From NCBI RefSeq assembly GCF_019059575.1, contig NW_024882202.1, positions 310,001 to 374,000 of the forward strand: a stretch of DNA of 64,000 nucleotides, in the 5' to 3' direction. The position numbers and the translations under genes were made by a program. Positions 3,305-26,000 of this stretch are shown here, in pieces. The first letter of the stretch is position 1, and each line of letters begins with the position of its first letter. This stretch comes from Amphibalanus amphitrite. Its lineage: Eukaryota > Arthropoda > Thecostraca > Balanomorpha > Balanidae. Below the pieces are notes generated by a model, which was not told the origin of the DNA, ran no database searches, and saw only the letters and a list, made by a program, of their open reading frames with translations.

Positions 3305-6300
3305 GGCGGCAGCCGGGATCGGATCGTTCTGACCACGGCCGAGCCGTCCGTCGGTCCCCTGCCGCACCCCTCCCTGCGACTGGTGGACGGGCCGACACCG
3401 TGGGAGGGCCGGGTGCAGATCTTCCACCGACACCACTGGCGATCCGTCTGCACCAACTCCAGAAAGTGAGAATGAAGCTGAACGAGTACCATTGATGCAT
3501 GCATTATTGTGATTTAATTTACCTGCAATTCAACATTCCCCAGCGATTGTAGATGTCAACAGCGCCACATGTTCCAATTATGTGCTCATTATGGCTGCAA
3601 TGGGTATCAATGCACTATCTGCGATCGCTCCACGGTATTTGCACTGTTCAACAGACGTTGCGGGCGTTGCAGGTAGCGACCGTAACTGCTGTGAGGTAAT
3701 ATATCCGGTCTGAGCGGCGTGCCAACTGCCAGCAACCATGAACGACCTCTCCCAACCGTGACTGCGTTCACTTTCTGCAGCTGGACGGAGGCGGACCGAG
3801 GGGTGGCCTGCTCACAGCTGGGCTTCTCCGGTGGCGAGTACGCCGACTGGTACCCGTGGCTGAACGGTACCCGCCGCCTGCTGTACCCCAAACCGGACTG
3901 TACCGGGACAGAGCGCCGCCTGCAGGACTGCAACTGGCAGTACCGCGCCATGGGGGCCGGCGTCTGTGGTGAGGCTCAATAGATCGTGGCAGAAGTTTAA
4001 CGCCCTGCCTTTTGTCCTTGCCTGCTTATTATTTTTTCATAGTCCGTCTCCGTTGCGTAAAATTATGAGACTCTTCCGAATGCCCTTCACTGACATCAGC
4101 TGCAGCATGCAATTCTTCGTTCTATTGGTTTTCTTGATTCCGATACATTTACGCGAAGGCCCAACTTTCCTCAAGGTCGCGTCCCGTCTCTCAGCTGATC
4201 CTTGTGCTTTACCCGCAGACGAGCACGCCGACCTGGCCATCCGCTGTGAGCCCGTGTTGGGGGCCGGCCGGCCTCTGACCCACTGGCGGGGCCTGAGGTT
4301 CGAGCATGCCTCCTACGTCAAAATGCTCACCGCCGGAGACACCCTCTACGAAAAGTTTTCCAATTCGAAGCTCTACCATGTGGATGTGCTGCACGCCGGC
4401 ATGGGACCCAATAAAGAGGTAGCGTGCGATACCATACCCATGAAGTGGCATTGAATGAAATGCAAAGTCCTTGCCTTCCTACTAGGCCCACAGCCCTACT
4501 TACCGTGAAACGAAGTTTTCATACTGTTAGCATTCAGCAATCATTGTAGTGCCGAGTCACTTTGCCGAACTTAATTTGCCGAACTTAATGCTGTTTGCCG
4601 AATTTCGCGACTATGAACCACAAAGAAAGTTGTATCAGTAATGTTTGTCCATCTCGCTCCCAGGTTCAGGCGGCCATTGAGAGTGTGGGCGTGCCTCCTC
4701 GGATGTACTCGCTGACGGTGAGGGACTCGGTCTCCGGCGGCATTAACGTCACCCAGCCCGACTCCCTGGTGGCCATCAACAACTGCACCGTCAGCGACAA
4801 CGCCGGTCAGTGGATGAAGTGTCAGCAAGGGTCTACCGTCTATGGGAGGCGAGGAATTCGCGCACTAAAGGGTTTTGGTGACGGGATGGCTCATCACAGT
4901 GTCTGCTTCCCTGATTAATTACGCACTTCGAGAAAGTTCACTTGACATATTAAAGTTCGACATATTTCGTATCCAATGTCATTGTATGTTGTTCAAAGTC
5001 ATGAACAAAGTCATGAACAGCAGCGATCTTCTTTAACACTTGTCAGGCATCGGCATGTACTTCAACACGTCCACGGGCCTGGTGCACGTGCACGACTGTG
5101 ACGTGCACGGTAACGGCGCCGACGGCCTGAAGCTGGTGCAGCACGAGCTGCAGATCCCGCGCCGGGAGGTGGACGGCGCGCCGGTCTCGGATTTTTGCAG
5201 CTCGGGTACCACGCTGGAGTCGGTGTACCCCATCTTCACGGCGGCTCAACAGTACCGCACCAGCTACCTCTCCAAACGGTGTCAGAAGGTGAGAGAGAGT
5301 CACAGAAATGTCGCCTCTAAAGCTTGGGTATGTTCAGGTAACTCCGATAGCTACGGTACTCGGAGTAACTGCTGTGATAGCTACGGTATTCGGGTCGATA
5401 TCGTTTTGTTGGTCTTACAGACTTCGGTGTGATAATGTCGTCTTAATGAGACACGGTGTGATGCGGACCTTAATCTCTTGAAGCTGCCGCAACTAGTGCA
5501 TTTCGTCTAAAAGCTGTCACCCACCCTCTTATCGACAACCAAAATATTATCATCTGTGCTGTCGCCAGCGTCACTTTACCGTCTGATTTCTGTGACCTAC
5601 TGCAGACGTTCCGCTGCCGGCCCGGCCTGGTGATGACGGTCAACTTCCTCTACCTGGCCAACGACATCGACGACTCTGCCACGCTGAGCTTCTACGACGG
5701 CACGGCCGTGACCTCGCCGCTGCTGGGCACCTTCCAGGTCAGTCCCGGAACGTTCCGCACCACACGCAGAAAAATATTAACACCGTTAGCGGTGTAATTG
5801 CACAGTACATATCTGAGCACTTGAGGAAAGTTAATTTAGTCCCTTCCCCGCTTAAATTACTCGCGCTTCCAAATGAACACCAGGAAGAAGGTAATAGAAC
5901 ACTGTTAGGAGGGTTGGGTGTTTTACTACATGTAGCAAAACACCCAACCCTCCTAACAGTGTTCTATTACCTTCTTCCTGGTGTTCATTTGGAAGCGCGA
6001 GTAATTTAAGCGGGGAAGGGACTAAATTAACTTTTCTCAAGTGCTCAGATATGTACTGTGCAATTACACCGCTAACGGTGTCAATATTTTTCTGTGTGCA
6101 CATTCTCTACGACAGTCGGGTGTTCTTAACGGTGTGTGATTGCTTTGTTCGTTTTTAGATTCGGATCAAATCTACCTGGAGGGCATGATGTATCCGGTTT
6201 GTTTTTACTGAAAGGACATTGCTTTGTCATGTGTTTTTACAAAAGTATGGCAGTGAAGTAACTCATCATGAGACACATTTGTAATATGGCACCAGTCTTA

Positions 6301-8038
6301 CCCTCTGAGTGGTCTCGACAGATCCGTAACGGCACCCGACCTCAGAGCGTGGTCACCACGAGGAACAATCTGCTGGTGACGTTCAGCGCCCGGAACGAGA
6401 CGCAGACCGAGGTCCTGATGGCCATCACCGCCGGCGACGGTACGCTGCGTCTGCCGGCTCTGTTGTTCACTTCCTGAACGCTATTGGGAGCGTTACCTCT
6501 TGAACTGGTTTCTTCTTCAAAAATAAAAGCTTTTAGCTAGAATAAATAGAAAATTGCCGTTATATTGTGCTATTATCTGGGTCGCAATACCTCATCACTG
6601 CTCTCTGGGGGACAACATATAGACAGATAAAAGAGTGACAATGATGGCCAGAGATGGTGCGCTTTGTTTGTTTGTATAGCAAGTTGATCAATGATCAGTG
6701 GTCATTGCTATAAAGATTATCTGGAATTAACGCTCCTTAATATCGTCTCTCCCGCAGGAAAGGCACACGATCTGAACGTCTCCAGCTCCGTCATCGCCAA
6801 CAACAACGGCCGTGGCATCGCCATCGAGAATATCCGCTCCTTGGTGCACATCCACCGCACGATCGTGGCCAACAACTCGCACGTGGCCGGCGTGCACGTG
6901 CTGGGAGGCGCCGGTGACGTCAACATCACGCGGTCGCACATCAGCGGAAACCTGGGCGATGGAGTGAACGTAACGTACGCGGGCGGAAACCAGAACATCT
7001 CGTGGTGCGACATCCGCGCCAACTCGGGACGTGGCGTGTCCGTCTGGTTCAACGAGACCCGCGAACGGGTGGCGTTCGCTCAGGAGCTGGTCCTGTCGTA
7101 CTCAAACATCTCTGCCAATCTGCAGCAGGGCCTGTTTGTCGGTAACTACTGCCGCTCTGCCTTCGTCAACGTCAGTGGAAATGTGTTCTGGAATGGCAAG
7201 GGGGACGCCGTGGACATCTGGTCCTGCTGGAACGAGACCTACGATCCGTTGAAGCTCCAGATCGGTCACAACCGCTTCATTGCCAACGAGAAGCTTGCCA
7301 TCAACATGGCCCCGGTCGCCAACATGGTCGGAACTATCGAACATAACTTCTTCTTTGAGCAGCGGAAGGCCACGATGCGTATTTTCAGCGGAGACGCACC
7401 GGAGGTGGAACTTCTCCCAGTGCGGCTGAAAATCTCCGACAACTACTTTGAAAGGAATCGTGGAATCTACGTCGTCAGCATTGGAGCATCTCAGTTTGTT
7501 CGCTCATCTCGACAGAACATCCTCTTCACTCGTAACTTCCTGCTGCGAAATACTGTAGCCGAGCCTTTCCCGAGCCTGAACCCACGTAACCGTGTATCCG
7601 CAGTCGTCACCGTTTCGTCGGCCTCAGCGATTGTCTATCGAAACATCCTGCAGAACCCTGGCTCTCGCTACGAGCTCGGTGTTCACTTTGAGGATCAGAG
7701 CTCCAACGCCAACGCCTCCCACAACTGGTTTGGCTACAAACGCTCCACAGACGTGTACGACCGCATCTTCGACCGCAAGGACCGCTACAACTTGGCCAGG
7801 GCAGACTTTGAGCCATTCTTGCTGAGCGAAAACGATCCGGACTCGTCTCTGCTGTCTCTGAACGAGCAGTTTGTGCCGAGTTTTGGGCCGAACGAGCAGG
7901 GAGAGATCGGCGGCGAGATCGACGGCCAGGTGGTGCTGCCTGAGGGCACTCTGAAGGTCACACGGGACATCTTCGTCCGTCCCACAGGACGACTGACCAT
8001 AGCGTTTGGTGTTCGCCTGCTCTTCCCGCATAGCGTCG
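3305..8038 (+). other. bark: bark repeat 1: SRCR, CUB-like, beta-helix exons
   Basis: Exons 3305-4418 encode an SRCR domain: the motif RLVDGPTPWEGRVQIF, then W-x-SVC, a VACSQLGF block, and the closing ADLAIRCE. Exons 4664-5288 encode a linker with N-glycosylation sites (INVTQP) and the first beta-helix-like coils. Exons 5606-5737 and 6322-6439 encode a CUB-like fold (SFYDGTAVTSPLLGTF, then NNLLVTFSA). The long exon 6758-8038 holds a right-handed beta-helix: many short strands of the type SxVIANNNGRGIAI or SHISGNLGDGVNV, with several NXS/T sites. Its end (LPEGTLKVTRDIFV...) already begins the next repeat. Confidence 0.85.
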
Positions 8039-11000
8039 GTAAGTTCTTAGCCTGAAGCATACGGCAACTATTAAATGGCAGATACCTATTGGATTATTTT
8101 ACTCGTGTTCGTTTTGTAAGTTGTCAGTCATTCTTGTCTGTTGCACTGTAGCAGGCGGCAATGCTTTCAAATCCGTATCTTGTTACTAAAAAAAGTCATG
8201 ATCCTCGTTTCATTGTTGAGCTGAAGGAGTGTTTCGATGTTCATGTCCTATCGGTATTTGTCTCCTTGAACGCTGATATCTCACCCACTCTTAAGGCCGC
8301 CCCACACTGGACCTCGCATGCGGGTTGCGAGTTTGCGGGTTTTGAGTTTGCGGGCATAATACTAATTCATAGAGTGATAAGACCGTTCCCATATGGTAAC
8401 TTCATGAATGCAGTGAAGCCGGTACACCTTCAGAAAATTATATATAGTCGCAATACCAGCGCAACGAACCAAAATTCGACTCCAACTCCTAAAACCCGCA
8501 AACCTCGCAGAACACGCAGACCTCGCAGCGAGGAAAATCGAAAGTTGACTCAAAATCAACTTTTGGAATGCGATGCAAGGTGGCTCACAACCTAAAAACA
8601 TGCAGACTCGCTTGTTATATAGTAGTGTGGGTCACTCAGCTTAGATTGTATTATTTAATTTTGAAGAAACCCGAAAACCCAAAAACTCGCAACCCGCATG
8701 CGAGGTCCAGTGTGGGGCGGCCTTTATTCACGAATCTCGATCTCCCAGGCATGATGGTGGCCGGGCACCTCCACGCTGAGGGCTCCTCACTGGCAGAGGA
8801 GAAGCGCATCACCTTCGGCCTGCAGGAGCGCGGCATCCGCAGCAACGTCAGCCTGGCGCCGGTCCGGCTGGTCGGCGGCAAGACGGATCGTGAGGGACGA
8901 CTCCAGGTACGGAATGGGACACGACCGTGCAGTCACAGTGGCTTGTAGAGCTTGTGCGAGGCAAGCCCGGTGTGCTTGTATGTCATCGAATCTAGGGAGT
9001 ATATTTTCATGGCGTGCGACTATTTAACGTTTTTACCTTCAGTACTTTTGTGTCTTTAACAGAAGGCGAGCAGCAGGAGTATCATGGCTAGTGGCTACCC
9101 GATCCACTGGACAGAAAATCTCTACTACTCTCAGGGCACTCATCTTACGCACGTATGAATTAGATCTGTAGGTAAATCGTGGCTCACTCCGACATCCATC
9201 ACGCAGGTGCTGATCGGTAACGAGTGGGGCACGGTGTGTGACCACGGCTGGAGCCGCCTGCCGGCCTCGCTGGCCTGCCAGCAGCTCGGCTGGGTGCTCA
9301 ACCCCGCCGACTGGACCGTCGATCCGCACGACCTGCCGCCCGACGACAACCTCGACACCCGAGTCCTCATGAGGTGAGCGAGAGTCAGCCGCGGCTTCGC
9401 GAACTCTTTTTAATATGGATAGCTTGAGTCTAGAGGTTATAGTGGAAGGTATAGAGGATACATGTTACATGTCTCCCAAGGTTTCGTTAGAATAGTTTTA
9501 TGCATGTGCGAAAAACAACACCTAAGAATAGCAATCCAGTCGATTATCTGACCTTTGTTGCAGCTTTTGTGACCTCTGACGTTTGATGACAGCGGTTTTC
9601 CGACATTGCATTGTGTCTACCTGGCCCACAGTTCGGTCCAGTGCTCCCCGACGGACACTGACCTGACCCGATGTCAGTTTGAGGGCGCCGATGACATCGA
9701 GAACACCTGCTCCCACCAGCGTGACGTCACTCTCCGCTGCTATGACGTCACGTGGGCGGGCGTTCGGTTCGGGGTGCCCTCGAAGAAGAACATCCTAAAG
9801 AATGTTCAGATGGAGAGGGCGGGACTGGTAGACTACTCCACCTATACATTTGGGCCCGGTGAGTGATAACTGACCGCATAATGACCTATCGCAAGAGTGC
9901 ATCGGATGACGGTTCCTAGCATTTACCTTTTGGGGGTTGATGATAAATTATCAATTTATTATACCTAATCGTAGTCCATATAACTAACATAATGTGCTAG
10001 CAGGAAAATGTTGTAAGTAACGTTATATAAGTAAATAATTTATTGTCAACTGCTAAAAGTGCGGCGGTGGCTCATTATGAACCGCGCGCGCACGATGTAG
10101 GAAAATGTGTGCCGACTGAAAGTTTGGGTCGGCTGGTTTTGTCGGTCTCGAGAGTCTCCAGCGCTAGATATGGCTTGGAATTTGGTTTAGTTCTTGGTTG
10201 GTTGGTTGGTTGCGGACCCACGGACTGGGCCACTGCCCAGTAAGTGGTTCGTTGTTTGGAATTCTTTCATGTTTGCTTCATGTAGTTTGCATGAGACTTA
10301 CGCCAACCTAATAACAGATATGTGGCCGAAAATATTGTGTTCATTTTTAATTAAATACTGAGTTAGAGTACTTCGTTTGTCATGTGACATCCGTGGCGGG
10401 TCGAAGACGAGATTTGGCGCTCACTTTCAACCTGGTTGTCTGATCTTGCAAGCCCCTTTTATCGACTATCTTGATCACTGCGCTGCTGTGCAAGGTATTT
10501 TCTTTCATGGGCCGGGAGAAAAGCATCGCTGGACGACAATTTCGTATTAAATGACTATGTTAATGATGTTCTCTTTTATATCATTTTTGAAGCACGCAAG
10601 CAAATCTCATGCTGTTTTGAATTTCAAGAACGTGACGTTTTGAGCTAGACACCTTAGATTATTCGGAACATGTCTCGATCACCCAACAGTACTTCAAAAC
10701 TGAGGAGTTCGATGCATGAAAACATTCGATAAAATGAATCTGACTTTCTGCCTGCACTGCTATTAGCGTTATGAGCGACGAAACACTTATCTCACCAGAG
10801 GATGGACGCGCAACAATGGGTGGAAGCACACCTCGCTGTTGCAAGTGCGTATCTAACCCGTGTAGAACCTGCCGCTGCGTGAAACTGGGAAGACGGTGTG
10901 CCACCTGTCGATTCGGAGACAACTGTCCGAATTCAGTACCGAAGCTCACACAATTATGCGACATTGCTACAGAAATCGCTACTTTGAAGCAAAACAGTCG

Positions 11001-14000
11001 GGTTCTACCGCACATCCCAAAAGGAGCGCGTATCGCGGTAGCAGACGAGCTTGCTCACCTTATCAACGACGCTGTCGAACAGGGCACTGAGGAAGCGTGG
11101 CGCAGGCTCACGTGCTTTGGATACTCTACGCTCAGTATCAACAGAGAAGCGCGAACAGCAGACAAGACCTCTTTGGCCACACAAGTGCGCCTAAACCTAT
11201 CACAGAAAAGTGACACCAACAAGGTCCGTCCTTCCAAACCATCCAAACGCTCACATGCACATCGCCCGGTGGGCGAGATGACAGCGATGTCACGACGCGT
11301 GGCCTCAAAACTGACGGACGGCGATACCCGGGGAGCGCTACGAGCTCTGACCTCAGATGACTCCTTCGCATCTCCAACAGAAGAAGTCATCAAAAGGATG
11401 CAAGAAAAGCACCCAGAACCGCCCACTGACCTGCGAAACGTTCCGCCACCTGACGACATCCACGTGCCGTTAGTGGCTTCCGAGGCCGACGTTTTGAAGG
11501 CGATCAACTCCTTTCCGCCGAGCTCCAGTGCAGGTTTGGATGGGATTCGCCCCGCCCACCTGCGCTCCCTCCTCACTAAACACACCGCCGAGGCTGGAGC
11601 TCGCCTACTCACAGCTCTGACAGCGCTCACGAACTTGGCGCTCAGCGGCCGTCTTCCGGAATGCGCAACACCAGCTTTCTTTGGCGCGTCGCTGATTGCC
11701 CTTCGAAAGAAGGACGGCGGCCTGCGTCCCATCGCTGTCGGCAGTGTGTATCGCCGAATCACAGGCAAGGTCGCCGCCACGGCCGTCTCGGCGGCCATCG
11801 GAGCTCAGCTGCGACCAGTACAGCTTGGTGTGGCCACGAGGAACGGCTGCGAGGCGGCAGTACACGCCACCAGAGCATACATCGACGAATGCGAAGCGTC
11901 CGAAAACAGCAGAGTTATCGTGAAGCTGGACATCTCCAATGCCTTCAACACCGTGCGCAGAGATGCGATGCTGGAAGCTGTGAAAACTCGTGCGCCAGAG
12001 ATATACCCGTTTGTATGGCAGGGCTACAACAACGCCGCGCCACTTTTCATCGGCGACAGTAAAATCCTTTCTCAGACAGGAGTCCAGCAAGGCGATCCGC
12101 TGAGCTCCCTGCTGTTCTCTCTGACAGTGGATTCTGCCACCAGGGCTCCAGACACAGAAATAAACACCTGGTACCTGGATGATGGAACGCTGGCTGGCCC
12201 ACCATCTGACGTCATCTCCAGTATCAAACAAGTGAAGGCAGAAATGAGCGAAGTGGGGCTCGCCATAAACGCAGGCAAGTGTGAAGTCACCTTCCTGGGA
12301 GGCTTCACCGACGATACCAAGCTCAGCGCCCTGCACATGCTGCAAAGTGTTCTTCCCGACATCCGGGAAGTCCCCGTGGATGAGTTAGAGCTGCTTGGTG
12401 CGCCTGTACATGACGCTCAAACAAGACGTGCGCTTCTACAAGGCCAGCTCCTGGTAGAGAAGCTTATCAAGCGCCTTCAGGCTCTGGACGAGGCACATCA
12501 GGCGTTCTTCCTACTGAAGAACTACGTGTCCCTTCCTCGCCTGTTGTACCTTCTTCGAAGCTCTCCAGCCTACCGCCACCCCGCCCTGCTCAACAGGATT
12601 GACGAAGCAGTTCGCCGTGGCATGGAAGTGATCACAAACGTCCAACTGCGTGACATTTCATGGCGACAAGCGACATTGCCAATCAGCCTTGGTGGGCTAG
12701 GCGTAAGGAGAGTAACAGACGTTGCCCTTCCTGCTCACCTCGCATCTCAAATAGCATCCGCTGACACGATCGCATCCATTAACGGCTCCGCCGCTAATCG
12801 CGTCAGTGAGCTAACGAGGTGCTTGATCTCAGAGTGGGAGCGTCGCACAGGCTTGCCTCCACCGGAAGCGCACAGGCGGCGCTACCAAAGAGAATGGGAT
12901 CGAGCTGAGACAGCAAGAATCAGTGAACGGCTGCTGGAAGACAGCAAAACCGATGTTGACCGAGCCCGACTCCGAGCTGCCGCACAACCACACTCTGGTG
13001 CCTGGCTGAACGCCTTCCCAGCCGCCAGCGTGGGCACGCTGCTCGACCCTGACACCCTGCGGACGGCCGTCGCCCTGCGGGTGGGAGCAGATATATGTGC
13101 TCCTCACCGCTGCCGCTGTGGAGCCGACATTGACGAGCGAGGCCTGCACTGCCTGTGCTGCCAGATGAGTGCTGGCCGGTTCCCACGCCATGCGGAACTC
13201 AACAGCGTCATCAAGCGTGGACTATCAACCGCTGGAATGACGTCTGTTCTCGAGCCGGCCGGCTTAGACCGCGGAGACGGACGTCGCCCTGACGGCATGA
13301 CGACCTTCCCCTATGCAGAAGGGAAGTGCCTCGTCTGGGACGCTACCTGCGTCGACACGTTCAGCGCTTCGTCAGTCAAGGCATCCGCGGCCCGTGCGAG
13401 CTCAGCTGCAACCGTCGCCGAGAGGCGTAAGCGCCATCGCTATGCCGACATAAGTCGACGCTATCTGTTCCGCCCTGTCGCCGTAGAGACATCCGGAGCG
13501 CTCGGCCCGGACAGTTACTCCTTCTTGAAGGAGCTCGGCCGCCGTATTGTGAAGACCACAGGAGACCGACGGGACTTTGAACGCCTCATGCAGCGCGTGT
13601 CTGTGGCGGTGGTGCGCGGCAACGCCACAGCCGTTCGACTTGCGAGCGTCAATGTAAGGCCGAGTCACAGAGCCAACATTGAGCCAAAAGCACTTCCATG
13701 GCCACCCACAAACTCAACTGGCACCGAAGCAAAGCTCCCACCGGAGCTACCAACCACCACGTCTCCTACGACCAGACCAGCAGAACAGGAGATACTGGAT
13801 CCATTGAACATGGGACTTCCCAACAATGGTATAAGCATGTGCCAGCACGTGGGCAAGAGCGTCAGTCTGGTTGACATTAAGCGGCAGCTGAAGTCGAACC
13901 GGCGGATCGGCGCCTGCGACAAGAAGGTGCCGACCCCGTGCACGGCACCCGCGGATGGGGAAGAGCGGCCGGTGCCGTCGGGCGCGCAGCTGCCGCACGG

Positions 14001-17000
14001 CGTCTGGCTGTGCATGCAGTGCGGCCACCAGGGTTGCGCGAGGCACGCCACGCAGCACTTTAACACGCCGCGCTCCGACTCGCACACGCTGGCCGTCAAT
14101 GCCGCCGCCGACTGGGGCGTCTGGTGTTTCACATGTAACGAGAAAGTGTCACTGAAGAGTAATAAGAAACTTCACGAAGCTGTGCAGTTTGTCAAGAAAA
14201 AGCAGGGAACTCTACGTCCCGGGGCCACGCCATCCAAGGAGGACACTCCGCCTCCCAAGTCTTCCAAGGGCGCCTCCGCTAAGGAGAAACAGGCTCAAGC
14301 GGACTGTGATAACGAGTCACTTCCGAAGGTCAAGGGTCTGATCAACCTGGGCAACTCGTGTTACCTGAACTCGGTGCTGCAGTGTCTGAGCCAGTGCCAC
14401 TACCTGACGCACTACCTAGACATCAGCAGCCGCCCAGGACGAAAGGTCACAGTCAGCGCTGACGGCGAGACCATGGAGCTGGTGCTGCCGGAGGGCGGGC
14501 CCATCACCGCCTCGCTGTGCGACTTTCTCAAGAAGATGCATATCACGGGCACCGGCTCCACCGTCTCCCCCAGTCATCTGCTCAGAAAGATCGCCCTGAA
14601 GGTGCCCCAGTTTGTGGGCTGCAACCAGCAGGACGCACACGAGCTGCTGCGAGCGCTCATGGAGCAGGCGCGGCTTGAGGATCTCGGGCGGCACCAGAAG
14701 CAGATCCTGCTCGGTCTGGGGCTGCCGGCCAAGGCCGACCCCAAGGAAGTACCCGACGACATGAAGGCGCGTGCCAAGGCGCTGGGCCACCAGGTATCGC
14801 ATACGACCATCGACTCCATCTTCAGCGGCCAGCTGGTCAGCCTGGTGGTGTGTCAGGCCTGCATGGCCTGCACACACCGCATGGAGCCCTTCCTCGACCT
14901 CTCGCTGCCCGCCGCCGAAGATATCATCTTCAGCCTGCTGTCGGAGCTCGACCCGCCGCCGGCCTCGGTCAGTGGGGATTCGACGGAAGACGAGCTGAAC
15001 GAACCGCCGGCCTCAGTCAGTCCGGACCCGCCGGCTGACGAGCCGCCCGCCTCGGTCAGCCCCGACCCGCCGGCCGACCTGGCCGCGGAGGAGCCCTCGG
15101 AGCGGCTCAGCGCGCTGATTGTGGACAGCGCCGGCGCCGCGGCCGCTGCGGACTCGTGTGGGGACGAGCCGGGCCCGCTGACGGTGTACGGCCGGCCGTC
15201 GTCACCGGTGGAGGCGGACTCGGCGCCGGCCGGGCTGGTGCCACTGGTCGGGGAGAGTGCTGACAAAGCCCCGAACGGTGCGCCGGAGACGGCGGGAGCG
15301 GACCAGGTGGGGGAGAAGCAGAGCTCTGTGCCGGCGGAGAACTGCGGAGAGGCTGTGGAGGCGCGTGAGAACAGTCTGGGCGCTCCGAACGGTCACTGCG
15401 GAAGGGCAGCCGAGGAGGCCCCGCGGGAGGGCCAGTCGCCGTCACCCGGTGAGGTGCCGGGCGGTGTGCCGACGGAGGCAGTGGCGAACGGCCAGAGCTC
15501 AACGGCAGGGGTGGCGGACGGCGGCGAACTCCAGTCTGCGCCGAACGGCGGGACCTGCGCGCCAACCGAGTCTGCCCCGGCCGAAGGGACGGGGACCCCC
15601 TCACCGGCGGCCGATCCCTCGGACGGCCCGCCGCCGCCGCTGAGCCGCTGTGAGTGGCTCAGTCGAGCGCTGACCACCCTGGCGCCGCGCTACCAGGCGG
15701 CCGCTGGCGAGTGCAGCCTGCTCACCTGCCTTAACCAGTACACGGCGCCCGAGCTGCTCACCGGCAACAACAAGCTCGGTTGCGACAACTGCACCGAGCT
15801 GCGCAACAAACGGCTCACGGCGGCTGAAAAAGCAGCTGAGAAGAAACTCGGCACAGTATACAGCAACGCCAGCAAGCAGCTGCTCATCTACAGTCCGCCG
15901 CCGGTGCTGACCATCCACCTGAAGCGGTTCGAGGTGTGCAGCTTCAGCCTGCGGAAGGTGAACCGGCACGTGCAGTTCGGCGAGCGGCTCGATCTGGCCC
16001 CCTTCTGTTCCTCCATCAGCCAGGACCTGCCTCAGATGCGGGCCGGCCAGCGGCGGGTGCTCTACTCGCTGTTTGGTGTCGTTGAGCACAGCGGTCGACT
16101 GACCAGCGGCCACTACACAGCCTACGTGCGCGTGCGCCGCCGTCACGACCAGCTCACCGTCAACCCTGCGCGACTCACCACACTCGTCACCGACGCGTTC
16201 GCCGTGGCGTGTGAGCGGGCGAGGCAGCGCGCCGAGCAGACCCGACCGGAGACCACGGACGGACCGTCCCCGGTCAGGCCCGCAGAGGAGGGCCGGGAAG
16301 ACGGGGAGGGCGAGGACCCCGCCGCCGCGCCACAGGAGTCACAGACGGATCAAAAACAGCCCGCCCCGGAGCCCGAGGCGGAGCCGGAGCCGCAGCCGGA
16401 GGCCGGGCGGTGGTTTTACGTGAGTGACACGCACGTCACAGAGGTGACTCTGGACAAGGTGCTCAAGGCGCAAGCTTACATGCTGTTCTACGAGCGAATT
16501 GTGTAAGCGACTGCGGTAGCTTGGGATGGTGCTCTGTGCACGGGGCTGTGACGGCGCGCGAATCGTGTCCCTCAGTCTGACCGAGGTGTGATTTCGGAAA
16601 GGTCGTTTTTTGAATTTGCTTTAATGTGTGTTCATATGCTAATAAAAGGTTATTGTTTTGGAAGTTCTTGGTTTGAAAGTTTGTGTTTTGCTCTGAATAC
16701 CAAACATTTTTTATTCATTGTGTTTCAATCCCCCACAAGCTATTTCGGCGTTATTCGTAATTTATCATTTAATTCAAATATCAAGCGAATAGCACAGTGA
16801 GCAAGAATGGCTTCACCTAGCTTCGACATCAGGTTAATACCGGAATTTGACGGGTCAGGTGATGTCGTAGATTGGCTGACCAAAGTCGAGATGGTCTGTA
16901 ATCTACAGACCCCGCCGGCTGAGGAACTGATTGTCATCCCTCTGAGACTGAAAGGTGGTGCGTCTGCAGTATACCAGCAGCTCTCTGTAGAAGAAAGGAA

Positions 17001-20000
17001 GGACGTGACAAAGGTGAAAACTGTGCTGAAGCGTGCGTTCGCAGCGGACAAATTCATGGCATACGAGAAGTTCGTTGACAGAAAGTTGAGAGATGGAGAG
17101 TCGGTAGATGTGTATCTAGCAGAACTCAAGCAGCTGTCAACACTGTTCGGAGGTCTCAGTGAAGAAGGGCTAGCGTGTGCTCTTATGGCGGGCTTACCGG
17201 ATGCGATAAGGCAGATCATGCGCGCCGGCGCTCGCATGGAATCGCTGTCATTGACAGAGATAGTGGCACGCGCGAGAGCAATTCTCTGTGAAGAGCAGAC
17301 AGTACCAAGCGCATCTGCTTTCCTCGGACAGACTCCCCGTTCGCAGGGCGTCTCTGCGATGCGAGGTCTCAACCCCTCGAGTAGGGTGGTGTCCAACCGC
17401 TCTCAGAATAACAGGTCAACCGTGTCTTCAAGGAACACGGGCCGCGGAAGACAGAGTATTCAGTGCTACCGATGCTCCGGATGGGGTCATATCGCCGCTG
17501 AGTGCCCGAGCCAGCCTCGCTCGGGAAACGAGCTGCGAGGAGAGGACTCAGCGCCGGCCTCTGCTCGGAATTGAAGTGGATGGGCGCGCTGCCAGTGCGA
17601 TCACTGGAAGTTTGCGGAAAACAGTGCAATGTTCTTATTGACACAGGATGCACCCGCAGTATCATTCATCTGTCTGTCTGCCAATCATGGGAACGGCAAC
17701 TTGTGAACGTTGCCACTGCAAGCGGCCACAATCTGTTGTGCATCGGAGTCGCGGACGTCAGTGTGCTCATTCCGGGGCTGAAGGTTGTGACAATAAGCGC
17801 ACTGGTAGCGGAAGACAGGCCTCTGGGATTCCACATGGTGCTTGGAATGGACGGTGTGCAGGCGCTTGGTGGTGTCTCCGTCCGGTCTCCAACCGAGGTA
17901 CTCTTCTGTAGCGAGAAGAACACCTGCGCTGGACTCCGAGAACAGAGTGTGTCGACATCGGGTGCGGCTGCAAGGTCACGCCAAGGCGCCTCGGCCCAGT
18001 CTCCGACTGAAGAACTCTGTCGCAGCGAGAAAAGGCCGCGCACTGAACTCAGTGAAGAGGCTCCTGACTTGACGACTGGCGTAGATGTGAAGCCACAGCT
18101 GTCCGTGGAGAAAGCTGATTTCCGGGCTTGGTTTGATGAGCGCCAAAGATGTTGGATCGTGTCCTGGAAGTGGTCTGATGGCAAAGCACCTGGAGTGCTA
18201 CAAAACTGTGTGGCTCAGTATCGCATCTCAGCTGAAGCCAAGGCGGCATACGAACAGGAAGTGGCCCTTTGGATAAACAATGGATGGCTTCTACCGTACG
18301 ATGAAAGTGAGCTGGGTCCGCCAAAGGGATTGATCCCCATGATGGCTGTCGTGCAACTGAACAAACAGAAAGTCAGACCGGTGATGGACTTTCGAGAAAT
18401 GAACACCCACGTGGACACTTTCACGGCAGATGCGGACGTGTGCAATGAAAAGTTGAGAGAGTGGCGCAAGCTGGGGAGAGACGTGGCGCTTTTGGACCTC
18501 AACAAGGCCTATCTGCAAATTCACGTGGAAAAGGAGATGTGGCCGTACCAAACGGTTATCGTCGGTGGCGTGCGATACTGCCTGACGAGGATGGGCTTTG
18601 GCCTCAGCGTATCGCCCTGCGTCATGAAATCCGTGCTGGATCTGGTCGTCAGCCAGGACTCGGACGTGCAGCGGGCAGTGTCGACGTACATTGACGACGT
18701 GCTGGTTGACGAGGCCGTGCTGCCGGCTGAGAAGGTGGCCGAGCACCTGAAGCGCTTCGGTCTGGAGTGCAAACCGGCAGTAAAACTCAAGGACGGAGGC
18801 AGAGCTCTGGGGCTGAGAGTATCAGCGGGAACAGACGGACTCAGATGGAGACGTGATAATGAAGTCACGGGGATCGAGCTGCCACTGACAAAGCGAAAGA
18901 TATTTTCATTCTGCGGACGTCTCACAGGGAATCTGCCCGTATGTGGCTGGCTCCGACCAGCTACCTCGTACCTGAAACGACGCGCGAGCGCGCTATCCGA
19001 GAGGTGGGACGATCCCATCGAAGACAGTGAGGTGAAGAACATGGTTCAGGACCTGTTGGAGAAGGTGGCAGCAGATGACCCAGCGAAGGGCAGATGGGAC
19101 GTGTCTGGAAGAGATGTCACAGTCTGGACTGATGCAAGCTCGTTGGCCCTCGGGGTAGCACTGGAAGCAGACGGCGAACTGATAGAGGACGGCTGCTGGC
19201 TGAGGAAAGACGATGGGACGCACATAAACGTCGCAGAACTGGACGCAGCTATCAAAGGAGTAAATCTGGCGATATCATGGGGAGCCAAGAAGGTTGTCCT
19301 AATGACAGACTCCCGCACCGTATATCACTGGATATCAAACTCACTGAGCGGAAAGATGAGGCTAAAGACGAAAGCCGCGTCTGAAATGCTCATCCGAAGA
19401 CGTCTCTCAACTCTGCAGATGCTGGGTGAGGAGTACAGACTGGACATGTCTGTGCGAAGTGTGACCTCTGCTGCCAATCGTTCCGACAATCTCACAAGGG
19501 TGCCACGCAAATGGCTGAGTCCAGAAGTGAAGACCAAAGCGCCAGGTACTCCGCGAGGCGCCACTGAAACCAGAGATCCAGAAGCAGGGAATGACAAGCA
19601 CAGAGCCCTGTGTGCCGCGATTGGAACGACAGCGAGGAGTGATTCCTGTCAGATCGCTGAAGCTGCTGTACAGCGGGAAGAGGACGGTATCTCTGCGAAC
19701 GAGCTCGGTGTGACTGGTGTCGCAGCCGTGGCAACAGCCGTGCAGTGTGAACAGGACCGCGTCGCTCAGATTCATGCTGATGCCGGCCATCCCGGAATCA
19801 GAAGAACGCACTTCTTCGCTAAACGTGTCATGCCCACGGTCACAAAGACCTGTGTCAGGAACGTCGTGACGAGCTGTCAAGTCTGCCAGTCGATCGATCC
19901 TGCCCCTGTCAAGTGGAAGAAAGGCGAACTCAGTGTCAAGCAGGTCTGGACAAGACTTGGGATCGACGTCACAGAGTACCGCGGCAGATCATACCTCACC

Positions 20001-23000
20001 ATCATCGACTGCAGCCCAAGTCGATTCACCATTTGGGGTCCACTGAGACTGAAAACAAGTTCAGTTCTAGTGGCCGAGCTACGCTCCATCCTGTTGGAGA
20101 GAGGAGCGCCGGATGAAATCCTACTGGATAACGACCCAGTGTTTCGAAGCAGGCGTTTTGGTGCATTTGCTGCAGAGTGGGGCGTGCGACTGACGTTCCG
20201 CTGTGCCTACGTCCCGTCCGGAAACGGTGTCACCGAACGCGTCCACCGCACCGTCAAGACCATAGCAGCAAGGAAGGGATGTGATATCTCAGAAGCTGTG
20301 TACATTTACAACATGACCCCGAAAGACAACAAGACAGACAACTCGACGCCAGCGAACCAGCTGTATCGCTACAACTGGAGGACGAGTCTGCCACACTCCG
20401 ACCCTTCAGCGCAGCAGGAACCGGCTGGCGGGTACCGCCCGCCAAAAGAAGCGTACGAGCCCGGAGATGCTGTCTGGGTGAGGCCACCCGGCGCGCGCTG
20501 TCACACACAGTATGAGCAGGGCGTGGTGACACGCACGCTCTCGGAACAGGCCGTGGAGGTGAACGGAGTGCCCCGCCACGTCCGAGAGCTGCGACATCGG
20601 CTCCAACAGGACCATGAAGCTGAGGATGACAGTGACTCAAGTGAGAAAGGACCCATGCTGGTGTCCCTCCCCGTCAGACAACCAGAAGTGACGCCACAGT
20701 CCGAGACCGCCCCGGTCACAGGTCGAGACCGCCCCGAGACCGTTTTGCGGCGATCAGAGAGGCTCCGAAGTCGTGCCGCTCGTGAATCACAGGTGTGATA
20801 TATGATTTGATGTGTCTTGAAAGACAGGGTGAGGTGTGCTAGCAGGAAAATGTTGTAAGTAACGTTATATAAGTAAATAATTTATTGTCAACTGCTAAAA
20901 GTGCGGCGGTGGCTCATTATGAACCGCGCGCGCACGATGTAGGAAAATGTGTGCCGACTGAAAGTTTGGGTCGGCTGGTTTTGTCGGTCTCGAGAGTCTC
21001 CAGCGCTAGATATGGCTTGGAATTTGGTTTAGTTCTTGGTTTGAAAGTTTGTGTTTTGCTCTGAATACCAAACATTTTTATTCATTGTGTTTCAATCCCC
21101 CACACATAATGTCAAGTTCTACGAATGCGAATGATACTACGAATACGAATGATAACTAAGACTTGTGTTCGCGCCCAATTAACCCTAACTTTTGTTTCAG
21201 CGCTCCGTCTGGATTTCAACCACCACGTTTTGGAGCATGTGACGCTGAGTGACAATGACGGTGACGGACTGGGCATCATGTACTCGGACATCTACAAGAT
21301 AGACGACGTCAACCATTTCAAGCACGTCGAGTCTCGCTACAACCGCGGCCACGGGATTTCAATGCGAACCGCCTGGCTGGATATGACCGGTTAGTTTTCG
21401 AGACCCTCTGGGCCTGGGGCGCTCTTTGGGGCTGTTGAGGCTGGGTCAATGAAGTGTGAATGGATCTGATTGGTTATTTGGTGATACTTGGGACGAATGA
21501 GCGGGGACGTCTCGAATCGGAACGTCTTGAAAGCCCTCCGAAAACTTTATGTCAATGCATTAAGCAGCCTCTTACTTTGTAACCTCTATGGTACCTCAGT
21601 ATGTATGTCCGATGGGTACTAGAATACATTCTCATGGCTGCCTCGTCTGTTTCAGATTGTAGGCTGATGGGGAACCAGCAGTCGGGTCTGCACTACGAGC
21701 CGTCCCTGAGCCGCTCCGAGCAGAGGGAGCTGGTCAGGTGGATTGCAGAGGCACCCGAGAGGAAGCTGCTGCTGCCCTCTGCCGACAGCAACATCGTGCT
21801 GAAGCAGGATGAGCCGGTCTACCTGATCACCATGGGCGCAGAGCGGGCCACGGACAAAGTCTTCAATATCAGGGTGAGACTGTACCAGAAATTTCTGTAA
21901 TATTTCTTGGAAGGTATGACAAATGTATCTTCTGACAATGCAGAGGAATGGGACTTTCGCGAAACCCACGCTGTTTGACAGACACGTACATATATCTCGT
22001 TTTGCATTGTGTTGCCACTTGCCACATATTGCGGTATTCTATAACAAGCATTAACAAGCATGTATTTATTCCTGTGAATGTCTCCTCTTGCAGACTGCCC
22101 GTGAAAACGTCATCGGAATCCAGGTGTTGAACCCGGGTGCCGAGGAATCCACCGAAGACGTGCACGTTTACGACTACTACAAGATACAGCCGGATGTCGA
22201 GGTATCGTTAATATTGTCTGGGAGATGATTTTTCAGTTGTGAATCTCGGTTATAAACCCATTGAAACAAACCTGACCTGTTGGATTGAGGTGTTCTTACA
22301 GTCCTGTTTAGCCGCTGGCAGTGACGCTTTGCCGACCCGACGCAGGTGTGGCAGCTGCGAAGGGACTTTTTGGCCTTCCCGGTGAGCTCGTCCAGTTACC
22401 AGGTGGTCATACGCTACCTGGCGCCGGGGAGAACCAGGGGAGGAGCCGTCCTCCTGCTCACCGCCGTCAGACGTGAGTACCTACAGCTGGTTCCCATGCT
22501 TTGTGTTCTGTCCCGTTTCCCTGCGCACATTGTAATCACGTGCCCCTTAGCAGATGAAAGTTTGCAACTCGTAACGCAGGCGTCAAGTTTGGTCAAGCAA
22601 ACCTTCTTTTGTTGCGCAAGTAAATTTTAATTAACGGTGACGAAATATAAATGGAGTTCACTAGGGTTACCCGCGTGCTCCGCAACGCAAAGGGGGGATT
22701 TTTTGACCCGTGGGTATTGGGTTGGTCTGTGTCGATTTGGTTGGTAGATATCCATTTCGTTCGATTGCTTTTTGACGGCCAAGCATTTTGTAAGAAAACA
22801 AAAAGATACATCGCATCGAGGTGCCCGTGTCGTATTATCATGCGTTCTACTTTAGAATGATTCGAAAACTGGCGTGAAGTCTTTTGAGGGCCATCGATGA
22901 ATTTCGTTAAAAATGACAATGTAATGGTTTGGAACATTTACATTTTTAAGGATACTGTTGCTAATCATGCAACAATGAAGAGTGAATATTGGACAGAATT

Positions 23001-26000
23001 GAATGCTCTATCCAATGGTACCATATTCAATTGCCAAAGGCATCAGGTTATGCAGCAAACCCCGTGTGATTAATAAAGTGGCACAAAATTGACAAACACC
23101 ATTTTCTCCTGTGATTTGCACCACCTTGATTTGGATCAATCAGCTTTTCACAATTTTCATATGAGAGGCGGTACCTTTCTCTTGCCAACAGGCGTTGTTC
23201 CAACTCGCTCCGTTTAACGGTCACCTAAAAAAAAAAATCAATTCCAAAATCCGTCCAAAACGTCAATTTTCCACATAAAAGTGCCCTCCTCGGTGCACGT
23301 GGCGCGTGCCATCCTCTGCATCGTACACCATTCGATAGCCCGTTCAATTATCTACACGATGCTGTTATTCCCGTGCCGGTCGGACCCCTGGTCACCAAGA
23401 TATTGCACGGGAACTGGACCCGTGTCGGCCAAAATTAGCCGTTTTCGCCCGATTTCGCACGCCGATTTATACATGTAAAGTCTATGACGCGAATTTGCAC
23501 TTTTTGAGCACGCGCCACGCGCTCCCTATCACTCCGATCGAGCTGAGACCCCTCAAAGGCACGTCGCGCATCCTTGATCTATAAGTTGTGCAATTTTCAC
23601 CGGGCTAGGTGCAACGGTCTGGCCTGTAGTCCACGCAAAGCACCATCAAGTCGGGACCTCGGTAACGGACAGACGCACCCTCCTCAAATAGTAATATAGA
23701 TTATTTTGAGAAACTCACCTAATCGCTGTTTAATCCTGGACTTATCCCTGTCCCGGAGACTCGGAGTGTGGCGTTCCAGTGCGATCACATGGTTGTCTGT
23801 CTCTGCAGGCTCGGACGTGCTGAACGAACGTCCAACTTCCCTGCTGCGTCGGATGGTCATCCCGGGCAGAACGCCCCGCATCAGACTCTTCAAGTCAACC
23901 GTGGAAAACAACAGACGCGGCATCTCAGCGCATTTCTACGACAGGTGGGCACGGTTTGGGGGCGCGTGGCGTAGCTGATGTCCGTCGTATCGTGGACCTG
24001 ACGCCGTTCGGCATGTGTACGCTGCTGCACAAAGCTTGGTTCTTAGTCAGCTGGTTACGATTATTTTACTGGCTCGTCGGACACTCATTTATTCGGAATA
24101 GTCCCCACGGAATGTCATGAACCATGGACATTTGACAATGAGGCACGTCACAGATGCCCTGTAACATGGCGTTAAGTTCAAACGGCATATGTTCAAAGGA
24201 AAATGTGGAATACACTGTAAACCATGCTTAAGAACTCATGTAAGTCGTAACAATTAGTTTCATAATTGAAAACGCTCAAGAAGATATTTCCCGGCTGCTG
24301 TCTTTCCTCTCTACAGGCACCTTGGTCTTTGACTTCAGCGTCTCATAGGCCGCCAACTTTTATGTCGAAGGCAAACAAGCGACTCAGGTATAAATGTTCC
24401 TTTCTCCTGCCATGATCTTGCTGGCTTGACTCCACTTGCTCTAAATGACCTGGCCCTGACACCGGTCTACAGTTGAGCTGGATCTGGCTGACCTCTGCTG
24501 GCCCTGGGCCATGGCCTGACCTTTTCGTGGTTCATCCGGATAATTGGGCTGTTCTTCCTAACTTATCTCCAGGCACTACTCTGTGTAGTTGGCCTGATCC
24601 TTGCTTGTCTCTCCTTCGACCTCCCGGTCCGCCTAGCCTACGTCGTATCCTCGATCCTTCTAGATAACCTGTTCGTCGTGGCGCGTTTCGTCGGTGGCCG
24701 GCAGCAGCTCTCCGTCATTCCCTCTGCGGTACATGGGTCCTCCGCTGCGGGCCGTGTTGTATGAGCCGCACTGGGCGCACTTGAGACCCACCACGTGGAA
24801 CGGCGCCACGCTGGTGGCGTGGCAGTCACGGCACAGCACGGACGCCAGGAGGTGTCGGTACTGGCTGGGCATCGCGGTCTGCTGCACCGCCTTGTCCAGC
24901 TCCCGCCAGACGGGCTGCATCTCCAGCATGGAGACGTTGCACAGCGGACAGGAGAACAGTCCGTGCTGCAGCATCTGCTGGCGGCAGGCCTCGTGCAGTC
25001 TGTGGCCGCAGGTGTTGACGTGCACGGCGGCCCGCGAGGAGTGCAGGTCATCCAGGCAGACGGCGCAGTCGTCCAGGGCGGCCGACGGCCGACACTGGTG
25101 GCTCTGCCGCTCGAAGAGGGGGTAGCAGCTGCCGCACTGCGCACAGTGGAACGTCTTCTCACGGGGACCGACGCGACACAAGCCACACTCCTCGCAGTGG
25201 TACTGGTCCCGGGACTTATCATACAGCCGGCAGATGGAGCAGAAGTACTCCCCGAACTGAACACCACAGCGCTCGCAGGCGCGGCTGACACCCTGACGAA
25301 GGTCGCACGCGCCACACTGGATCTCCGACACCTCGAACCGGTTCAGCGTGTGCACCTCGGCGGCGTCATGGCAGAGACGGCACCAGTAGAGTCGGCCGCA
25401 GCAGGGGGCCACCAGGCGTGCCCTCCGACGGTAGTGCTCGCAGCCGAGCTGCTGCAGGACGTCCGTCTGCGCTGTCACAGAGTTCACAGAGCGTACTTCG
25501 GCCATGTCCAGATGATTCTGATAAGACGATATTGGAGATCTTATGCCACCAGAAACGTTCCCACCAGCGTGACAGTGCCACTAGTGACCAGACAAAAGCT
25601 GAACGTTCCACTCACTTGTAGAGACTCTCTTGGACTGGCGTCGTTGTGGACAAGGGTGCGCCGACCACCTCGGCGTCTCTTATCTTCTCAGGGAGCCGAC
25701 CGGGCGCCCGCTATCGGCTGGAGGGTGTCTGTGGCACGAGGCATTGTGCTGGAGTTCGTTTGAACCTTGCCCCGTCCACGAGTCAGTTGTTATCGGGCGT
25801 CCATTTGCATGCTATGGAGATTGGAGACCTTTGGATCGGATAATGAGAACCACGGATGGTGGTCTTTGGACTTCGTTCGAAAGTCGAAACTTTTGCCAGC
25901 TCAAGTTATGGGTGATTTAGACTCCCGTCTCTTCAAAATGCTGCAGCTGGGCAATTGCTGCTTGTTCGTTGATAAACGGTCTAATATTTTCCTTGGTAAT

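Follow-up and report, generated by a model that had tools for sequence, protein, structure and literature searches.

A non-LTR retrotransposon of Amphibalanus amphitrite carrying a predicted deubiquitinase derived from host USP16/45 mRNA, and its relatives with exchangeable USP tails

The stretch of DNA analysed here, referred to as the window, comprises 64,000 nucleotides of the Amphibalanus amphitrite genome (NCBI RefSeq assembly GCF_019059575.1, contig NW_024882202.1, positions 310,001 to 374,000 of the forward strand). It holds a long terminal repeat (LTR) retrotransposon into which a second element has inserted, a non-LTR retrotransposon whose single open reading frame (ORF) joins a reverse transcriptase (RT) and a restriction-like endonuclease (RLE) to a ubiquitin-specific protease (USP) of the USP16/45 type. 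We call this second element the RT-USP element. Its features and those of its surroundings are listed below by window position, with the evidence in brackets.

9993..21104, + strand: outer LTR retrotransposon, with gag at 16807-17574 and pol at 17502-20798 (LTR comparison)
10189..10199, + strand: left target site duplication, AGTTCTTGGTT (LTR comparison)
10200..16662, + strand: complete RT-USP non-LTR retrotransposon insert, 6463 bp, without a poly(A) tail
10200..10770, + strand: 5′ untranslated region (UTR), 571 nt (copy ends, sister comparison)
10771..16506, + strand: stop-free ORF for the RT-RLE-USP fusion protein, 1911 aa (sequence, ORF translation)
10837..10932, + strand: N-terminal Cys-rich motif, residues 23-54 (sequence)
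11704..12321, + strand: RT domain, residues 312-517, with YLDD at 468-471 (12172-12183) (Pfam, motif, fold)
13111..13161, + strand: CCHC-like knuckle preceding the endonuclease, C781, C783, H793 and C797 (alignment A2)
13285..13350, + strand: RLE core RPDG...WDAT, residues 839-860 (motif, fold match to R2)
13798..13830, + strand: scar DPLNMGLPNNG, the start of a former, different USP domain (sister comparison)
13831..16597, + strand: segment from spliced host USP16/45 mRNA, coding part and about 90 nt of 3′ UTR
13996..14154, + strand: UBP-type zinc finger, residues 1076-1128 (Pfam)
14335..16503, + strand: USP catalytic domain (Pfam, PDB search, catalytic boxes, AlphaFold2 fold)
14359-14361, 16111-16113 and 16426-16428, + strand: catalytic codons of Cys1197, His1781 and Asp1886 (boxes)
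14923-15687, + strand: long disordered insert inside the USP domain
16598..16662, + strand: 3′ terminus, 65 nt, outside the contiguous host gene (second junction 16597/16598)
16641-16646, + strand: AATAAA (alignment end for 9 of 14 copies)
16663..16673, + strand: right target site duplication, AGTTCTTGGTT (LTR comparison)

The outer element encodes a gag CCHC motif, protease, RT, RNase H and integrase. It is flanked by CATAA at 9988-9992 and 21105-21109, a 5-bp duplication, and the direct repeat at 9993 and 20835 is its LTR pair. The 5′ LTR is split by 10200-16662, and once the insert and one copy of AGTTCTTGGTT are removed it equals the 3′ LTR except for one 1-nt indel. The outer element is young, and the RT-USP element inserted into it with an 11-bp target duplication; the near-identity of the restored 5′ LTR to the 3′ LTR indicates that this happened recently and in one piece. 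The 5′ UTR of the insert is 75% similar to that of a sister element, L025, over 524 nt. Its 3′ UTR measures 156 nt, and no strong structure was seen in it (fold z-score 0.59).

The first-pass annotation of this DNA had proposed an uninterrupted ORF of 1911 codons at 10771-16506 encoding an RT, an endonuclease and a complete USP16/45 deubiquitinase. The frame is indeed free of stops, and a motif check recovered both YLDD at 468 and RPDG at 839. Pfam places RVT_1 at residues 312-517 (6e-20), zf-UBP at 1076-1128 (1e-10) and UCH at 1189-1789 (1e-48), and beyond these gives only a sub-threshold UCH_1; the boxes NLGNSCYLN, SGHYTAY and WFYVSDTHV locate C1197, H1781 and D1886. The UBP zinc finger and the USP domain with its three catalytic residues, as annotated, are therefore present. 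The AlphaFold2 model of the RT half has a mean predicted local distance difference test (pLDDT) score of 93, and its first seven PDB fold matches are all R2 proteins. The knuckle residues C781, C783, H793 and C797 are invariant across the 40 sequences of alignment A2. An RT with a YxDD motif and an R2-like fold, followed 3′ by a CCHC-like knuckle and then RPD...WD, identifies an RLE (R2-group) element.

For the USP half the best solved relative is human USP16, with 312 bits against 92 for the next USP. The AlphaFold2 model of this half is weak overall (mean pLDDT 54.6, with 330 of 891 residues at 70 or above), though such as it is it matches USP16 with a TM score of 0.81 by target length. The Cys and His boxes, the catalytic Cys, His and Asp and the USP fold are those of a USP deubiquitinase (peptidase C19), and this is the activity predicted for the USP half. 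A 39-nt repeat unit present in all 14 other aligned USP16-bearing copies is absent from the window copy, and a PHD finger is precomputed for 12 of the listed relatives.

The source of the USP half was found in the same genome. The first-pass annotation had expected an intron-containing parent gene for the intronless USP, and a host USP16/45 gene with introns lies at C614 (L037). The comparison was made with host DNA from 14380 on and, 5′ of that, with the host protein P0002 only. From 14380 on the window matches the host gene in blocks split by host introns; five introns with GT...AG ends, at about window positions 14469, 14589, 14688, 15830 and 16023, are all precisely absent from the element, which over this range bears out the proposed passage through spliced RNA. 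Between the USP half and P0002, 840 of 910 aligned residues are identical. The annotation's word "complete" fits the domains and the catalytic triad but not the full length, as 107 residues of the host protein (P0002 residues 394-500) and some shorter stretches are missing. The left edge of the 107-residue gap lies at most 3 nt from a splice donor, and the right edge falls inside a host exon (...GGGCCCG|ATCATC) where there is no AG. Exon skipping is ruled out by this right edge, and a deletion or an RT jump would be the likelier cause. The match continues through the host 3′ UTR to 16597. The final 65 nt are absent from the contiguous host sequence, of which about 100 nt past that point were examined; the contiguous host 3′ UTR thus does not account for the entire 3′ end. 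On the strength of this comparison, the USP half was derived from spliced host USP16/45 mRNA.

The junction on the 5′ side of this segment preserves a trace of what had been there before. The window reads ...DPLNMGLPNNG-ISMCQHVGK... at this point, while two sister sequences, L024 and L025, keep the continuation of the scar, GLPNNGNSCYQN, and read ...DPLNMGLPNNGNSCYQNAVLQ..., the catalytic-Cys box of another USP (here called USPx) which is also found in P0027 and P0028. Over the 432 nt that lead to the junction, L024 and L025 are 97% identical to the window; over the shared 2.9 and 3.6 kb the identities are 89% and 86%, respectively. Since the scar is the start of the catalytic-Cys box of the other USP, the alignment shows that USP16/45 took the place of an older, different USP and now directly follows its first residues. 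L024 and L025 differ upstream, but the 6458 nt that follow, as far as the fetched stretches extend, are 99.9% identical between them; their USP carries a frameshift. The 3′ UTR of the window element gave only chance-level matches to L024-L028. An A. amphitrite gene model named 'Sphingosine kinase 1' (P0003) starts with MGLPNNGISMCQHVGK, inside the scar. Its USP is 95% identical and it shares 34 residues with the window against the host protein; in all likelihood, this gene model has been merged with a further RT-USP copy.

Copies of the element were sought in the whole A. amphitrite genome (807.55 Mb, 2644 contigs), where 25 of 4715 candidates were scored and the counts are thus lower bounds. 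At least 40 stretches match the fusion protein. At least nine loci, the window included, hold residues 1-1436 in one stretch, seven besides the window with an identity of 99% and C16 with 95%. No stop is reported in the open frames, 1912-1933 aa long, of seven of these nine loci (the window, C22, C565, C752, C1163, C138 and C129), the C752 match reaching only residue 1887; the copies at C87 and C16 have stops. The RT-USP junction is identical in 13 of the 16 RT-USP16 loci (the window and L009-L023). The other three, L020-L022, begin 3′ of it, and every fetched copy that reaches the junction shares its exact form. As the 13 loci with this junction lie on different contigs, an assembly artefact is ruled out. 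L031, L032 and L041, fetched as candidate host loci or 3′-end donors, turned out to be 5′-truncated copies, as L040 probably is too.

The ends were measured in 14 loci, a survey that left aside L017 and L018. Five share their 5′ end within 6 nt and nine are 5′-truncated; nine end at AATAAA, and 36 matches to the 3′ end of the element were found, some of which stop short of AATAAA. A candidate target duplication of at least 9 nt is present in four loci, and none of at least 7 nt in the other ten. C565 and C129 have a common 3′ flank, the flanks being otherwise unrelated, and no Rfam match (rRNA, tRNA and snRNA included) at the gathering score was obtained in 14 loci; a site-specific target was accordingly not seen. 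Intronless, 5′-truncated copies and target duplications mark the element as mobile by reverse transcription. In the window, 16641-16662 consists of AATAAA and about 16 further bases that are copy-specific; bases of this kind might be short 3′ transductions and so reveal the source of a copy. Two intronless USP16/45 pieces, L033 (C861) and L034 (C879), correspond to element positions 5569-6345 at 98.5%, are cut on both sides and, unlike other copies, stop at the window equivalent of 16544.

The ratio of nonsynonymous to synonymous substitution rates (dN/dS) was determined between RT-USP copies in an alignment without L018. For the USP core it is 0.19 between L019 and L009 (24 synonymous and 15 nonsynonymous changes, p=7.7e-7), 0.25 for L022-L009, 0.27 for L023-L009, 0.29 for L019-L022 and 0.33 for L019-L023, all with p<=0.0011; these pairs share sequences and hence are not independent. 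The window compared with L019 gives 0.27. The disordered parts of the five diverged pairs have values of 0.55-0.83, none of them significant. The fused junction is present in L019 and L023, and L022 is truncated past it. These substitution patterns show purifying selection on the USP catalytic core between diverged copies.

Counting that of the window element, 21 proteins of this RT lineage with USP tails were found, and behind the shared RT-RLE core the relatives carry USPs from at least four further families. In PDB searches the closest USP is USP2 for P0009 (369 bits, next 281), USP8 for P0013 (307, next 257), USP30 for P0016 (167, next 58) and USP35 for P0023 (168, next 73); the search was also run on the tails of P0028 and P0135, without family assignment, and the remaining USP tails were grouped with searched ones by similarity. 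All 21 USP tails have the catalytic Cys; among those that extend far enough, His is found in 13 of 13 and Asp or Asn in 12 of 12. Other members of the lineage have short tails of type B (motif DPELARYL) or type C (WGELFGARP), or end after the RLE. When 13 lineage proteins were analysed with Pfam, seven had a tail domain above cut-off, always a USP domain or UBP finger, and six had none.

The RT tree shows the tail types in scattered positions, and tail similarity and RT similarity disagree. A 45-row RT tree, comprising 34 labelled rows (without P0142, P0166 and P0029) and 11 of the unlabelled ones, requires at least 17 tail changes for 10 states, where the minimum is 9; a 111-row tree left out P0077, P0172, 10 too-short rows and 17 distant RT rows. 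Sister pairs with unlike tails and 95-100% support are the window and L025 (USP16, USPx), P0010/P0011 (USP16, USP2), P0013/P0143 (USP8, B), P0022/P0135 (B and what we take to be a USP10-like tail) and P0019/P0028 (B, USPx). Trees placing all members of a tail type in one clade were rejected for USP16 (p=0.0005), USP2, USP38 and B. P0078 and P0101 have tails that are 82% similar and RTs that are 49% similar, while P0009 and P0025 have RTs at 82% and tails at 60%.

Other members of the lineage have also multiplied in A. amphitrite. Searching the same genome with the 1390-aa P0023 (34 of 4194 candidates scored) revealed a family of RT-USP35/38 elements with at least six loci matching the query end to end at 99-100%, one of them with a stop. 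In four loci that were read completely, the frame is open over 1757-1795 aa, and L042-L045 have AATAAA a few nucleotides past the stop codon, their sequences diverging soon after. There is also a second RT-USP16/45 in the genome, L038, with an open frame of 1706 aa, an RT 40% identical to that of the window and no zinc finger. These comparisons show that the lineage is mobile and that its USP tail can be exchanged and is under selection.

Tail B is found in P0004, P0007, P0018, P0019, P0022, P0078, P0080, P0091, P0101 and P0143 and in L026-L028, with a conserved DP(E/D)LA(R/Y)YL and LxxYxxLxxEM in varying order. The motif presumably resembles the ubiquitin-binding MIU pattern (DxxLAxxL), and tail B may also be ubiquitin-related; a length-limited homologue search for a host source (188 candidates) returned only the query P0018 and P0019. 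Tail C, in P0020, P0021, P0096 and P0127, has the motif DFxxPWGELFGARPK, and no Pfam domain above cut-off was found in P0020 and P0021. P0174 (1599 aa, from a Logan contig) has an RT only about 25% identical and its USP N-terminal to the RT (Pfam USP 74-293, RT 669-885), and probably belongs to another lineage that acquired a USP independently. P0056-P0063 are long RT proteins (1787-2285 aa, 27% identical) extending about 370-870 aa past the part aligned to RT-RLE. One crab homologue is labelled SLACS by its source.

The first-pass annotation had offered two explanations, capture of a USP by a mobile element or a chimeric mRNA copied once. Insertion of the whole unit with a target site duplication, the copy number, the identical junction and the purifying selection favour capture, as do the common 5′ end and the 5′ truncations typical of a long interspersed nuclear element (LINE). 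The fused unit moves as a whole, and it was the fused form that multiplied after capture. That another LINE copied a one-off chimeric mRNA would account for the intronless USP part, but it is excluded by the copy number, the shared junction and the selection; with a junction common to 13 loci, a common 5′ end, several open copies, diverged subfamilies and RT-USP relatives with other USPs, we give it practically no weight. During target-primed reverse transcription the RT would have left the element RNA for host USP16/45 mRNA near 16597 and returned to element RNA at 13830. Such a double template switch most simply accounts for a segment of host mRNA lying between the USPx scar and a terminus that is not from the host.

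We consider it rather probable that the RT-USP element, an R2-type (RLE) non-LTR retrotransposon that looks active, has an exchangeable deubiquitinase module as its C-terminus, the tethered USP presumably acting in cis. The USP would remove ubiquitin from the element's own protein or ribonucleoprotein (RNP), or from ubiquitinated neighbours at the insertion site, and the RNP would thereby evade restriction by the proteasome or by ubiquitin signalling for as long as integration takes. For the functional part by itself, cis-deubiquitination of the RNP or its immediate surroundings, the chances appear evenly balanced. The interchangeability of USPs with very unlike natural substrates points to proximity, rather than native specificity, as what matters. 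It is for the same reason that cis action would be favoured over a histone-specific role, in which the USP, like USP16, which takes ubiquitin off histone H2A K119, would open or re-activate silenced target chromatin or the element's own silenced copies. The closest solved relative, USP16 on an H2AK119ub nucleosome, the zinc finger kept in the window USP and the precomputed PHD finger, a chromatin reader, in 12 of the listed relatives all speak for that role. However, relatives carry USP30-, USP8- and USP2-like tails, the usual substrates of these USPs are not mainly histones, and no zinc finger is present in L038, the second USP16/45 capture. Tails drawn from several USP families would fit generic ubiquitin removal in cis better than a role on histones alone, and the chromatin explanation seems unlikely to us. 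USPs cleave after the C-terminal Gly-Gly of ubiquitin, and Pfam gave no ubiquitin-like domain in the window protein or in 13 other proteins (7 + 6), both of which speak against a self-processing or polyprotein peptidase like the proteases of other retroelements. Such a role would suit a cysteine peptidase at a polyprotein C-terminus, and a Ulp1-like peptidase is described for nematode NeSL and Utopia-1_TSP in the part of PMC4640811 covered here; we nevertheless regard it as very improbable.

Several observations weigh against an exchangeable and useful deubiquitinase module. The copies at C565 and C129 could represent a single insertion that appears on two contigs. No USP is recognised in tails of types B and C, and many members end after the RLE, so the lineage does not require a USP. 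Two core comparisons were not significant (L023-L022 at 0.60 and L016-L009 at 0.32), and over the whole USP half the window compared with near-identical copies gives a dN/dS of 0.50-1.06, and 1.85 with L020, as drift after insertion would give. The double switch and the action in cis are inferences. The whole-half ratios and the members without a USP would also fit passengers, host mRNAs often joined by template switching whose USP tails are useless to the element. This appears improbable given the purifying selection on the core between diverged copies, the catalytic residues in every tail that reaches them and the exclusively USP-type nature of the Pfam tail domains in the 13 lineage proteins. 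Returning to the deubiquitinase module, we propose tentatively that the lineage keeps a standing slot behind the endonuclease which is refilled repeatedly by template switching with host USPs of different families, giving an exchangeable counter-defence module against ubiquitin-dependent restriction of retrotransposition by the host, a problem to which tails B and C could be alternative solutions.

R2 targets 28S rDNA and has no peptidase. Like R2, the window element has an RT followed by a C-terminal zinc knuckle and RLE, and it shares the RT-RLE fold; unlike R2, it has a USP after the RLE, flanks that differ among the 14 loci (C565/C129 apart) and no Rfam match. In the part of PMC4640811 considered here, one specific target is described as common in the CRE, R2, R4 and NeSL clades and less so in HERO, and the Ulp1-like peptidase of NeSL and Utopia-1_TSP is N-terminal. 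These too are RLE elements with a cysteine peptidase, Ulp1 acting on a ubiquitin-like modifier, whereas the USP of the window element is host-derived, C-terminal and of a family that changes within the lineage; Pfam found no N-terminal Ulp1-like peptidase in the window protein. Ginger1 DNA transposons carry OTU or Ulp1, and one Trichomonas transposase has Peptidase C19, again USP-type, according to the portion of PMC2836005 consulted. These are mobile elements with ubiquitin or SUMO hydrolases, but they are DNA transposons, and that portion reports no repeated replacement by different host USPs. Compared with host USP16/45, the element has the same UBP zinc finger and USP domain, but fused to RT-RLE, intronless where compared, multicopy and mobile. 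The word ubiquitin does not occur in the available text of PMC4640811 and PMC6338049, and no non-LTR element with a USP was found among the titles and abstract openings of open-licence PubMed Central literature, a scope outside which Repbase lies.

Elsewhere in the window there is a 168-nt inverted repeat at 5763-6098, its arms abutting without a spacer and 98% complementary, and, on the minus strand at 24660-25505, an uninterrupted 281-aa ORF with a CHY zinc finger, a RING and a zinc-ribbon, which from its domain order we take to be an RCHY1-like E3 ligase.

Two deposited sequences call for caution in annotation: the RT-USP protein P0023 is named 'Ubiquitin carboxyl-terminal hydrolase 38', and the gene model P0172 has swallowed pieces of the element. 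Within the sources covered, hydrolases acting on ubiquitin or its relatives were known before from NeSL, Ginger1 and one C19 transposase, with roles that were merely proposed. In the present case a single RT lineage has several host USPs in one slot; the scar of a replacement is visible, the parent gene has been identified and the catalytic core is under selection. The lineage provides a case of host-gene capture by an animal LINE, probably by double template switching, and makes it directly testable why mobile elements need control over ubiquitin. The finding suggests that control over protein tagging in the cell is of advantage to jumping genes.

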